Origin: Synechococcus sp. CC9311
GTDB taxonomy: Bacteria > Cyanobacteriota > Cyanobacteriia > PCC-6307 > Cyanobiaceae
DNA length: 64,000 nucleotides
Assembly: GCF_000014585.1 (NCBI RefSeq)
Contig: NC_008319.1
Span: 1,860,001-1,924,000, forward strand
Direction: 5' to 3'
Under the pieces are notes generated by a model. It searched no databases. It had not been told where the DNA came from and saw nothing but the letters and a program-made list of their open reading frames with translations. Below are positions 2,938-6,545 of this stretch, in pieces. Position numbers and translations under genes: made by a program. The stretch's first letter is position 1. Each line of letters opens with the position of its first letter.

Positions 2938-4784
2938 TCAACGTGCCTACCAACCCACGGATCTCGCCAAGACAGCGCAGCCGGGGGCTGTTGCTGATCT
3001 TGGCGCTTGGCCTTGCCATGTGCTGCTGGCAACTGGGTTCCACCGGCCTTGTCGATGAAACTCCACCGCTCTTTGCAGCAGCTGGCCGTGCCATGGCACG
3101 CACGGGAGACTGGTTAACGCCTCGGGTTAATGGATTACCACGATTCGACAAACCGCCCCTGGTGTACTGGCTGATGGGTTTGGGCTACTCGATTCCAACC
3201 AACGAGCTCTGGGATCCACTCGGCACCTGGGCCGGCAGGCTTCCTTCAGCCCTCGCGAGCGTGGCAACCATGCTCATGCTTGGGGACACCTTGATACTGC
3301 ACCCAGCTGAACAGGAGAGCCATCCACGCCGCACCGCGGTGGCAGCAGCGCTGGCCTTTGCGCTCTCCCCCTTGGTGCAGATATGGAGTCGGACCGCCGT
3401 CAGTGATGCCCTCCTGAGCGGCACCCTCGCCCTCAGCCTTCTCTGCCAGTGGCGTTGTTATGCCAGTGGAGCATCTCGACGATGGTGGCTCGCCTGGGTT
3501 CTGCTCGCCACAGCCGTTCTCACAAAAGGGCCTGTAGCCGTGGTCCTCAGTGGCATGACTCTGGCGCTGTTTGCTCTGATGCGCCGAGATCTCAAGGGCA
3601 TATGGCAGTGCATCAAACCTATACGTGGCCTCGGGCTCACCGCGTTAATCAGCCTCCCTTGGTACATCGCAGAGCTGATGGTCGAGGGCCAGCCTTTTTG
3701 GGACAGCTTTTTTGGTTATCACAATCTGCAACGCTTTACATCAGTCGTGAATAACCACCTTCAACCCTGGTGGTTTTTCGGGGTGATTTTGGTTGTGGCA
3801 TCCCTGCCCTTCACTCCCTTGTTGCTCCTTGGGCTGGCGCAAACCCTGCATCCATCAAACCTGAAGCGTGCCTTTTCATCCGTCCAACCCAATGCAAGCT
3901 TGTCTCTTCAGAGTTTTGCCAGTTGCTGGCTTGTATCTGTATTTCTGCTGTTCACCACCGCGGCAACCAAGCTTCCGAGTTACTGGCTGCCTGCCACTCC
4001 AGCTGCAGCGATTCTCATCGCCCTTGCAGCAAGGCCCTCCGAACCAGGGAAACGCCTCCCTTTCGATTGGGCCTGGGGCACAACAATCTTGCTGACATTT
4101 GTTTTGTCGATGGGGTTCTGGGGTTCCTCGGTCTGGATACCTCTCATCGATGACCCCGAGATGCCCACGCTGCCAGAAGAACTAATTGCAAGCCGCTTAG
4201 TTTTAAGGGCAGCAGTGTGCTTTTCGATCGCTGGTTTTTTGGGCCTCTTGATGATCAAGCGGAAGGCCTCCGGTCGCTTGCTAGCCGTTCAGGGACCGCT
4301 GGTGGTGTTCCAGCTCATTGCTCTAATCCCCATCATTGACCTAGGCGATCGCGTGCGTCAGCTTCCAATCCGTGATGTTGCCGCAACTGTGTTGGAAAAC
4401 CAGCGTCCTGGTGAACCTTTAGCGATGGTTGGAGTCGAGAAGCCGTCTTTACATTTCTACGCAGATCAGGTCGTTGTCTACGAAGGTCTTACAAAAAATG
4501 CTCTTATAAATTTGGCTGATCGATTAAGCAGGGAGAATCGAAGAGGGTGGCAAGGAGTTTCAATTGACAGCGATGGTGAAGGTTCGCAAACGGTGATGGT
4601 CGTTATTGATTCGGACACATTTAAAAGGACTCATTGGCAAGGTCTTAATCCAGCAATGATCGGACAATTTGGGATCTATCAAGTTCTTAGATTCGATAGG
4701 AGTAAGTTGGAAAAAAGGGCTTCAGAGCTCAAGGCCTCTGGACACAAATCAACATGGGAAAGGTCCCGTCCAGAACGTTACTGA
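2928..4784 (+). CDS. Family 39 (PMT/ArnT-like) membrane glycosyltransferase
   Basis: Polytopic GT-C enzyme predicted to move a sugar from a polyprenyl-phosphate donor to an envelope acceptor on the outer face of the membrane. The N-terminus has one helix and then an acidic loop (GLVDETPPLFAAAGRAMA ... GDWLTPRVNGLPRFDKPPL) that closely matches the ArnT-type catalytic loop; the DE pair there is the expected catalytic site. About ten further helices and a soluble tail follow. I chose ATG 2928, giving 618 residues; a longer frame opens at 2883, inside the preceding gene. It overlaps the upstream GT4 gene by 10 bases and the convergent DUF721 gene by 7. With its two upstream neighbours it forms an envelope glycosylation operon. 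Confidence 0.83.
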   Translation: MSMINVPTNPRISPRQRSRGLLLILALGLAMCCWQLGSTGLVDETPPLFAAAGRAMARTGDWLTPRVNGLPRFDKPPLVYWLMGLGYSIPTNELWDPLGTWAGRLPSALASVATMLMLGDTLILHPAEQESHPRRTAVAAALAFALSPLVQIWSRTAVSDALLSGTLALSLLCQWRCYASGASRRWWLAWVLLATAVLTKGPVAVVLSGMTLALFALMRRDLKGIWQCIKPIRGLGLTALISLPWYIAELMVEGQPFWDSFFGYHNLQRFTSVVNNHLQPWWFFGVILVVASLPFTPLLLLGLAQTLHPSNLKRAFSSVQPNASLSLQSFASCWLVSVFLLFTTAATKLPSYWLPATPAAAILIALAARPSEPGKRLPFDWAWGTTILLTFVLSMGFWGSSVWIPLIDDPEMPTLPEELIASRLVLRAAVCFSIAGFLGLLMIKRKASGRLLAVQGPLVVFQLIALIPIIDLGDRVRQLPIRDVAATVLENQRPGEPLAMVGVEKPSLHFYADQVVVYEGLTKNALINLADRLSRENRRGWQGVSIDSDGEGSQTVMVVIDSDTFKRTHWQGLNPAMIGQFGIYQVLRFDRSKLEKRASELKASGHKSTWERSRPERY

Positions 4785-5314
4785 CTGCTTCCGAGCGACT
4801 CTGAAAGCTTCAGTCTTCGACAGAACCCGCAGTGGCCCCAGAGAGCCATCTCCCCTGCCGGAGCTGGGCTGTCACAGCAAGGGCATGACGCCATTCCATG
4901 CACATCGATCCGGCTCGGATGGCGAGCCCAAACACTCTCTTCTGTCTCTAACTCTGCTGTAGGTGATGGGTGGTGTTGCTGAATCCTCAGATCGCGTACG
5001 GCATGGCCAGCGCTTCGCACTGCTGCCAAGAGTTGAGGCTTGCTGTACTGAAGAGCCTGGCGCCATTGCGGGTGGCGCGCTCCCACAGTGAGGACACCAT
5101 GGCTCAAATTCAGGGGCCTGCAGTGATCAGCCAAGGGACGCCCCGCTAACTGGGGCCAGTCCTGCCAAAGCGCAGCCAGTGAGCCTTCACGTCTCCATGT
5201 ACTCCGCAGAGACTCAAGGCACTCTTGCAGAGGTTGAACTGGCGGCGGTGGCGGCGGCACCAACACCTCTCCCCGACCAAAACGGCGCCGCTGGGATCGA
5301 GGTGCTCGCCCCAT
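4778..5314 (-). CDS. DUF721/DciA-like protein with cysteine-rich tail
   Basis: 178 residues. The centre (about 30-110: LRSTWRREGSLAALWQDWP, then GRPLADHCRPLNLSHGVLTV, then QWRQALQYSKPQLL) matches the DUF721/DciA family. Its founding member loads the replicative helicase DnaB in bacteria lacking DnaC/DnaI loaders. The N-terminus is basic with a proline run. The last ~40 residues carry a CPCC cluster and a HCGFC cluster, a possible zinc ribbon beyond the usual family length. It stands alone on this strand, convergent with the GT39 gene (7-base overlap) and divergent from vipp1. Family assignment is fairly firm; helicase loading is inferred by homology. Confidence 0.75.
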   Translation of the reverse strand: MGRAPRSQRRRFGRGEVLVPPPPPPVQPLQECLESLRSTWRREGSLAALWQDWPQLAGRPLADHCRPLNLSHGVLTVGARHPQWRQALQYSKPQLLAAVRSAGHAVRDLRIQQHHPSPTAELETEESVWARHPSRIDVHGMASCPCCDSPAPAGEMALWGHCGFCRRLKLSESLGSSQ

Positions 5315-5393: not shown

Positions 5394-6161
5394 ATGGGTT
5401 TCTTCGACCGGCTCAGCCGTCTGCTGCGCGCCAACCTCAATGATCTTGTTAGCAAAGCTGAGGATCCCGTCAAGATCCTTGATCAAGCCGTCTCTGACAT
5501 GCAAGACGACCTGGTCAAACTCCGACAGGCTGTTGCGATGGCAATCGCCAGTCAAAAACGGCTCAAAAACCAAGCAGAGCAGGCCGAGTCTCAAGCTCGT
5601 ACCTGGTACGAACGCGCCGAGCTCGCACTCAAGAAAAACGAGGATGACCTAGCACGTGAGGCCCTCACCCGTCGCAAAACATTCCAAGAAACGGCCACGT
5701 CTCTTGGCACTCAGGTTCAAGCTCAGAGCGCTCAAGTTGAAACCCTCAAAAAAAGCTTGGTTGCTCTGGAAGGAAAGATTGCCGAGGCTCGAACCAAGAA
5801 AGACATGCTCAAAGCCAGGGCGCAAGCCGCCCAGGCTCAACAGCAGCTCCAGAGCGCTGTTGGCAGCATGGGAACCAATTCAGCCATGGCTGCATTCGAG
5901 CGCATGGAGGACAAGGTTCAATCTCTCGAAGCCAGTAGCCAAGCAGCAGCTGAGCTCGCTGGTGCTGACCTCGATAGCCAGTTCGCGGCGCTTGAAGGTG
6001 GCGACGATGTGGACGATGAATTGGCAGCCTTACGAAAGCAGGTCAAAGGAGGCTCGGAGGCTGCAGCTCTCCCAGCAGCGGACTCTGAGGTAAAACCCGT
6101 CAAGGTGGAAGAGGTTGATGCCGATCTCGAGGAGCTGCGTCGATCTATCGACAAACTGTGA
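5394..6161 (+). CDS. vipp1: Vipp1/PspA (IM30) membrane-remodelling protein
   Basis: ESCRT-III-related protein that coats and remodels thylakoid and plasma membranes. 255 residues from ATG 5394, where MGFFDRLSRLLRANLNDLVS is the classic amphipathic helix 0; an upstream ATG at 5352 would add an unrelated extension. The body is coiled coil, rich in Ala, Gln and Glu, to about residue 190. A linker follows, ending in a short C-terminal helix (VDADLEELRRSIDKL) that favours Vipp1 over plain PspA. It is followed 57 bases later by a thioredoxin gene on the same strand. Confidence 0.9.
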   Translation: MGFFDRLSRLLRANLNDLVSKAEDPVKILDQAVSDMQDDLVKLRQAVAMAIASQKRLKNQAEQAESQARTWYERAELALKKNEDDLAREALTRRKTFQETATSLGTQVQAQSAQVETLKKSLVALEGKIAEARTKKDMLKARAQAAQAQQQLQSAVGSMGTNSAMAAFERMEDKVQSLEASSQAAAELAGADLDSQFAALEGGDDVDDELAALRKQVKGGSEAAALPAADSEVKPVKVEEVDADLEELRRSIDKL

Positions 6162-6218: not shown

Positions 6219-6545
6219 GTGTCTTCAGCTGTTTCCGACTTCACAGATGCAGCGTTCGAGCAGGAAGTGTTGACTGCATCTACGACCGTTTTGGTTGACT
6301 TCTGGGCCCCATGGTGTGGCCCATGCAGGTTGATGGCGCCATTGATGGACTGGGCTGCTGAGACCTACGCCGACAGCCTTTTAGTGGGCAAGCTTGAAGT
6401 GGATGGCAACCCAATCACCCGCGATGGGTTCAAAGTTCAAGGCATACCAACTCTGATCCTGTTCCGTAACGGCCAGGAAATTGCTAGGCACGAGGGGGCC
6501 ATTGCCCGCCCTCAGTTGCAATCCTTTCTGGATGCTCACCTCTAA
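6219..6545 (+). CDS. Thioredoxin
   Basis: Small dithiol oxidoreductase of 108 residues. The active site WCGPC lies at residues 32-36 after the FWAPW strand, and the cis-proline is in GIPTL at about residue 76. It starts with GTG at 6219. Its 3' end overlaps the aminotransferase start by 14 bases, so the two are likely co-expressed. It looks like an m-type thioredoxin serving light-dependent reduction of target enzymes, but other thioredoxin subtypes cannot be excluded. Confidence 0.92.
   Translation: MSSAVSDFTDAAFEQEVLTASTTVLVDFWAPWCGPCRLMAPLMDWAAETYADSLLVGKLEVDGNPITRDGFKVQGIPTLILFRNGQEIARHEGAIARPQLQSFLDAHL

Follow-up and report, generated by a model that had tools for sequence, protein, structure and literature searches.

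The dciA gene and its neighbours

The window (the whole stretch of DNA that was analysed, 64,000 nucleotides of Synechococcus sp. CC9311) contains an open reading frame of 178 codons and a stop whose product is a true DciA, the ordinary helicase loader of a cyanobacterium (Table 1). The sequence-only reading placed this frame exactly and left out its strand; the minus strand is the coding strand, and stop codons interrupt the plus strand across the same interval. The helicase-loader-like DUF721 core described in that reading is borne out by a Pfam scan and by structure prediction. PF05258 (DciA, formerly DUF721) matched residues 29–111 with 84.1 bits against a cut-off of 24 (E 8e-24). An AlphaFold2 model of the whole protein, built with 51 relatives, has a mean pLDDT of 83.0 and a pTM of 0.52, and its core matches solved DciA structures, which were the top Foldseek matches of the model (7ykm, E 2.0e-5; 8a3v_D, E 8.2e-5). 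With VIA, the model scored Z 12.7 against 8a3v_D (93 aligned, rmsd 3.1) and Z 10.7 against 7ykm (78 aligned, rmsd 2.4). The genome of the window (G000) has one DciA match and one match to the DnaB N-terminal domain, and DnaA is also present.

Table 1. Features of the dciA locus in the window
Feature	Coordinates	Strand	Description and basis
dciA open reading frame	4778..5314	minus	178 aa + stop
DUF721 / DciA core, KH-like	4982..5230	minus	residues 29–111; PF05258 and model against solved structures
W-x-x-HPSR-x-DVHG stretch	4895..4930	minus	residues 129–140, directly N-terminal of the finger; alignments, residue sets
Putative Cys4 finger	4820..4885	minus	C144-x2-C147-x14-C162-x2-C165 with P-x-P-x-G-E-x3-W inside; alignments, selection, models
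PspA/IM30 (Vipp1-like) gene	5394..6161	plus	divergent neighbour, not part of the finger; PF04012, E 7.1e-63
Thioredoxin gene	6219-6545	same strand as PspA/IM30 gene	

The dciA and PspA/IM30 genes lie head to head, with 79 bases between their ATG codons if the latter gene is taken to start at ATG 5394 (its Pfam scan ran from the second codon). This divergent neighbour is kept in 29 of 30 loci of the window's family (L001–L030, the window's own included); L020 ends close to dciA. A thioredoxin gene lies within about 1.5 kb in 22 of the 30 loci. Among 80 named loci (L079–L158), which were selected by the tail pattern described below, 58 have a divergent PspA/IM30 gene upstream of dciA and within 6 kb, one has the gene upstream and one downstream in another arrangement, and 20 are without it in the DNA examined, two of these having less than 1.2 kb upstream. 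Among ten of the named loci, the eight that have the gene carry it 2.0–4.1 kb from dciA. Two tandem PspA/IM30-like frames, one recognized by Pfam and the other by sequence, occur near dciA at L088:2375-5736; a 474-residue frame between this pair and dciA matches no Pfam family at E 0.001. Linkage of dciA to PspA/IM30 may merit note because Brezellec et al. (2016), in the passages of their paper drawn on here, reported no conserved genomic location of dciA in Cyanobacteria (PMC5109545).

A four-cysteine tail behind the core

The CPCC and HCGFC clusters that had been picked out in the C-terminal tail are found at C144-P-C-C147 and H161-C162-G-F-C165. The resulting C-x2-C-x14-C-x2-C pattern recurs with identical spacing in all 58 loci read, one of them the window's own (from 56 matching genomes, at 57 distinct places), an agreement far above chance. 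In a 55-row alignment of the tail, which excludes L024, L043 and the duplicate L057, columns C144, C147, E155, W159, C162 and C165 show no variation, and P145, P150, P152 and G154 very little. Of the stretch that precedes the finger, the HP pair is common to nearly all other aligned sequences, and VHG is typical of the window's family.

The sequence-only reading had asked whether four or more cysteines and histidines are invariant. This is so for C144, C147, C162 and C165, which are kept in every class locus read, but not for the other two candidates. At C146, the middle cysteine of CPCC, 29 family sequences show C, D, Q or R. H161 is invariant in those 29 but gives way to K, M or C in three further members of the family and to V, M, C or other residues outside it. 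Since both positions vary among relatives, C146 and H161 are probably not metal ligands. Retention of the remaining four makes the proposed zinc-binding extension by far the likeliest reading of the tail, and the Cys4 tail very probably binds zinc.

When the tail was predicted alone (residues 118–178), it formed strands at 141–143 and 150–152 and helices at 153–159 and from 163 onward; the block means of pLDDT over residues 138–167 were 83, 88 and 92. In this model the first cysteine pair (C144, C147) sits between the two strands and the second (C162, C165) where the last helix begins, a predicted arrangement that would suit a single zinc site; the rows behind both this model and that of the whole protein came via the tail pattern, and the models may lean on the tail. 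Against solved structures, the tail alone reached a best Foldseek E of 1.9 and a best VIA Z of 2.0, values that are not significant and exclude nothing, and its sequence gave no meaningful match there (best E 0.035 over 13 positions). The zinc-finger family PF23145 is weakly matched by 29 of 52 tails, the best at E 4.2e-4; the window's tail matches no Pfam family, and the whole protein no zinc-finger family, at E up to 10.

Selection on the finger was compared with that on the rest of the protein. Among the window's sequence and the six closest to it, dN/dS came to 0.032 for the core and 0.037 for the finger, against 0.055 for the linker and 0.54 for the final ten residues. Mean pairwise identity over the same four segments, taken from 29 of the family's 36 distinct loci (all but L024, L031–L035 and L058), is 0.75, 0.76, 0.46 and 0.31. 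Both measures put the finger near the core, and thus the finger is kept about as strictly, under purifying selection about as strong.

Distribution of the tail within the class

The phylum was sampled with 291 genomes, 139 of which (counted from printed rows) belong to the window's class, presumably Cyanobacteriia. PF05258 is present in 276 of the 291 genomes. The tail profile matches 128 of them, 127 being the dciA-positive genomes of the class, such that 127 of the 139 class genomes have both dciA and the tail and 12 have neither. The 128th match, in G238, was considered as a dciA remnant and rejected, as it is a weak hit in another frame of a histidine-kinase-like open reading frame. In 126 of these 127 genomes, core and tail fall within a single match of a full-length profile. 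The exception is G160, where the match stops behind the core; its locus, L180, has the tail in the same 150-residue frame.

Twenty loci were fetched as possible exceptions from the 28 weakest real tail-profile matches in the phylum, and all 20 have the exact cysteine spacing. L170 has lost the loop glutamate and kept the spacing. Exact spacing is also seen in 80 of 80 named loci, which were fetched via the tail pattern and so carry no weight for conservation. A first profile search covered 60 genomes, including the window's own, and matched 56; of the four unmatched genomes, G041 and G055 have dciA by a better profile, G026 shows none with that profile either, and G005 is 58% complete. In most other families of the class, the finger is preceded by a helix-like AFxxWAxxxxxR stretch that is missing in the window's family.

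A Cys4-tailed DciA is the rule in the window's class. The suggestion that the architecture would be unusual does not survive these counts, with the tail in 127 of 127 dciA-positive class genomes sampled, and the architecture has been known since 2016 from one sentence in print (PMC5109545).

Class genomes without a DciA match

No DciA match beyond chance was obtained in G093, G103, G105, G148, G165, G170, G178, G207, G219, G238, G245 and G255. These twelve genomes are near-complete and have DnaB, and three of them (G103, G148 and G170) are one contig. Replacement of DciA by a DnaC-like loader was considered, with no clear candidate: the strongest PF01695 matches are DnaA genes, and the weaker ones do not, by eye, separate genomes with and without dciA. 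Co-loss of dciA and dnaA was likewise looked for and not seen: of the 12 genomes that lack dciA, 10 have dnaA, as do 22 of 28 other class genomes. A match to the DnaA C-terminal domain is absent in 8 of 40 class genomes (G180, G295, G302, G273, G158, G199, G103 and G105), six of which have dciA and two of which (G103 and G105) do not. The open frame that holds the DnaB match at G103:C1:2105090-2105392 runs to 13,851 residues, much longer than a DnaB can be, and may reflect masking or another oddity of the record at this place.

Cysteine tails outside the class

None of the 149 dciA-positive genomes outside the class matches the tail profile, which is blind to other tails. The tail as a novelty of this class only was nevertheless rejected, as 13 of 29 loci read outside the class have C-terminal tails of the Cys4 type that are built differently, often as G-W-x2-C-x2-C-G ... 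C-P-x-C; these 29 were chosen for strong scores and family coverage and not at random. By family, the tails occur in two of three loci in f42, three of three in f44, seven of seven in f45–f49 and the one locus read of f51; L059 has C-x-C in place of C-x2-C. The cysteine tail is absent from all ten loci read of f43 and all five of f50, the families of small genomes (1.8–2.5 Mb; L068–L078, L159, L161, L163, L165), and in 11 of these 15 tail-less loci the protein stops right after the core. Because two families are without it, the finger is dispensable for DciA in general.

Profile comparison of the class tail with the outside tails gave a probability of 43.9 (E 2.4e-4) and, with another alignment, 5.9 (E 0.0064), and homology of the two is therefore only suggested. 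Given that Cys4-type tails also occur outside the class, the finger may be older than the class. Profile A8, made from nine outside-class tails, matched 15 of 291 genomes; the nine matches at E 1.7e-17 or better are its own sources, and the remaining six include DciA tails in G075 and G088. Searches for relatives beyond cellular chromosomes gave no match in phages, 29 pattern matches in viral_contigs of which none was confirmed, and five weak matches in plasmids of which none spans 80% of the query.

The outside tails bear on two alternative roles for the finger. Small Cys4 fingers are often structural, and the finger could be a purely structural cap that serves folding of the C-terminus or self-association of DciA, with no specific contact to DnaB. 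Differences in loop length and make between the classes of the phylum, together with the two families that have no tail, are what a replaceable scaffold would give, but inside the class the P-x-P-x-GE-x3-W loop is conserved beyond the needs of metal binding (L170, without the glutamate, apart). A purely structural cap is unlikely. The cysteines might also act as a switch, with oxidation or loss of zinc under changing light or redox conditions lowering helicase loading. While this idea draws on four clustered cysteines in a cyanobacterium and on the nearby thioredoxin gene, that gene shares its strand with the PspA/IM30 gene and not with dciA, and C-terminal Cys4 tails occur in sister classes as well, which are believed to be non-photosynthetic; such a switch seems highly improbable.

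A proposed role for the finger in helicase docking

In V. cholerae DciA, the C-terminus is reported to form a two-helix hairpin that contacts the helicase (PMC9865707), and in C. crescentus DciA the C-terminal leucines 163, 167 and 170 are required for DnaB binding (PMC9825169). Since the cyanobacterial finger lies at the same end of the protein as these DnaB-binding C-termini, a role in the docking end is proposed; the partner contact suggested by the sequence-only reading would fit these C-termini. In this picture, a variable linker connects the KH-like core with the C-terminal finger, in which one zinc ion would be held by the four cysteines; this finger, at the end of DciA that grips DnaB in characterised proteins, would form or stabilise the DnaB-docking end, and DciA would thereby hold DnaB while its core handles ssDNA. 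As a whole, a zinc-stabilised finger in the helicase-docking end of cyanobacterial DciA is the best explanation of the data, with a probability of roughly 0.55. For docking of DnaB by the finger, a step suggested by its position, the chances are about even.

Zinc ribbons often bind nucleic acid, and the finger might instead be a grip beside the KH-like core that holds ssDNA or the fork during loading. The window's DciA has a basic RRLK after the last cysteine, and an arginine before the loop tryptophan is invariant in 15 aligned sequences of other families; however, the 29 sequences of the window's family have L, E, Q or Y at this position, and many other families are without basic residues after the last cysteine. 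A precedent for a contribution from outside the core comes from C. crescentus DciA, where ssDNA is bound by the DUF721 core and an N-terminal extension outside DUF721 that is needed for the binding (PMC12547741). Taken together, a nucleic-acid grip appears decidedly unlikely.

A stronger form of the docking-end reading would make the class finger and its P-x-P-x-GE-x3-W loop the very element that docks DnaB, in place of the leucine-bearing helices of other DciA proteins, and the sole C-terminal contact in the window's family. This is a tentative idea and rather improbable; if it were right, helicase loading would depend on zinc supply. Several points count against a zinc-stabilised docking end: the window's tail has no significant match to a solved structure or Pfam family, DciA of two families does without the finger, and in most other families of the class the AFxxWAxxxxxR stretch could itself be the DnaB contact. 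No test of the function of the cyanobacterial finger was found in the literature searched.

Most bacterial phyla rely on DciA to load their helicase (PMC9865707), and the way in which it loads DnaB is still under study. A finger conserved in 127 of 127 dciA-positive class genomes sampled, at the end that in other bacteria contacts the helicase, offers a simple handle on loading in this clade, and the finger-less families of the phylum and the class genomes seemingly without dciA are natural comparisons.

Comparison with known systems

Like the window's DciA, the V. cholerae and C. crescentus proteins carry a C-terminal extension behind a KH-like core (PMC9865707, PMC9825169). As described in the parts of these papers used here, that extension is unstructured with helices, or carries conserved leucines, whereas that of the window's DciA is a putative Cys4 finger; the word "zinc" is absent from the main text of both papers. 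The Bacillus helicase loader DnaI contacts the helicase with a zinc-binding N-terminal domain (PMC3791466), as is proposed here for the DciA finger. This is an analogy only: unlike DciA, DnaI is an AAA+ ATPase, and its zinc domain is at the opposite end.

The closest known system is the zinc-finger DciA of Brezellec et al. (2016), who stated that a zinc finger can be present at the C-terminus of DciA, "for example, in Cyanobacteria", and whose data set includes Nostoc, Prochlorococcus, Gloeobacter, Trichodesmium and Synechocystis (PMC5109545). The window's DciA has the same core family and the same C-terminal placement of the finger, and its four cysteines near the C-terminus, putative metal ligands, are conserved among relatives in 58 of 58 and 20 of 20 loci. 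The passages of that paper drawn on here describe neither the spacing nor the invariant residues of the finger, nor its extent or function, and the first three are supplied by this analysis. New here are the exact pattern, its presence in all sampled dciA-positive genomes of the class, the tails and absences in sister families, and the selection figures.
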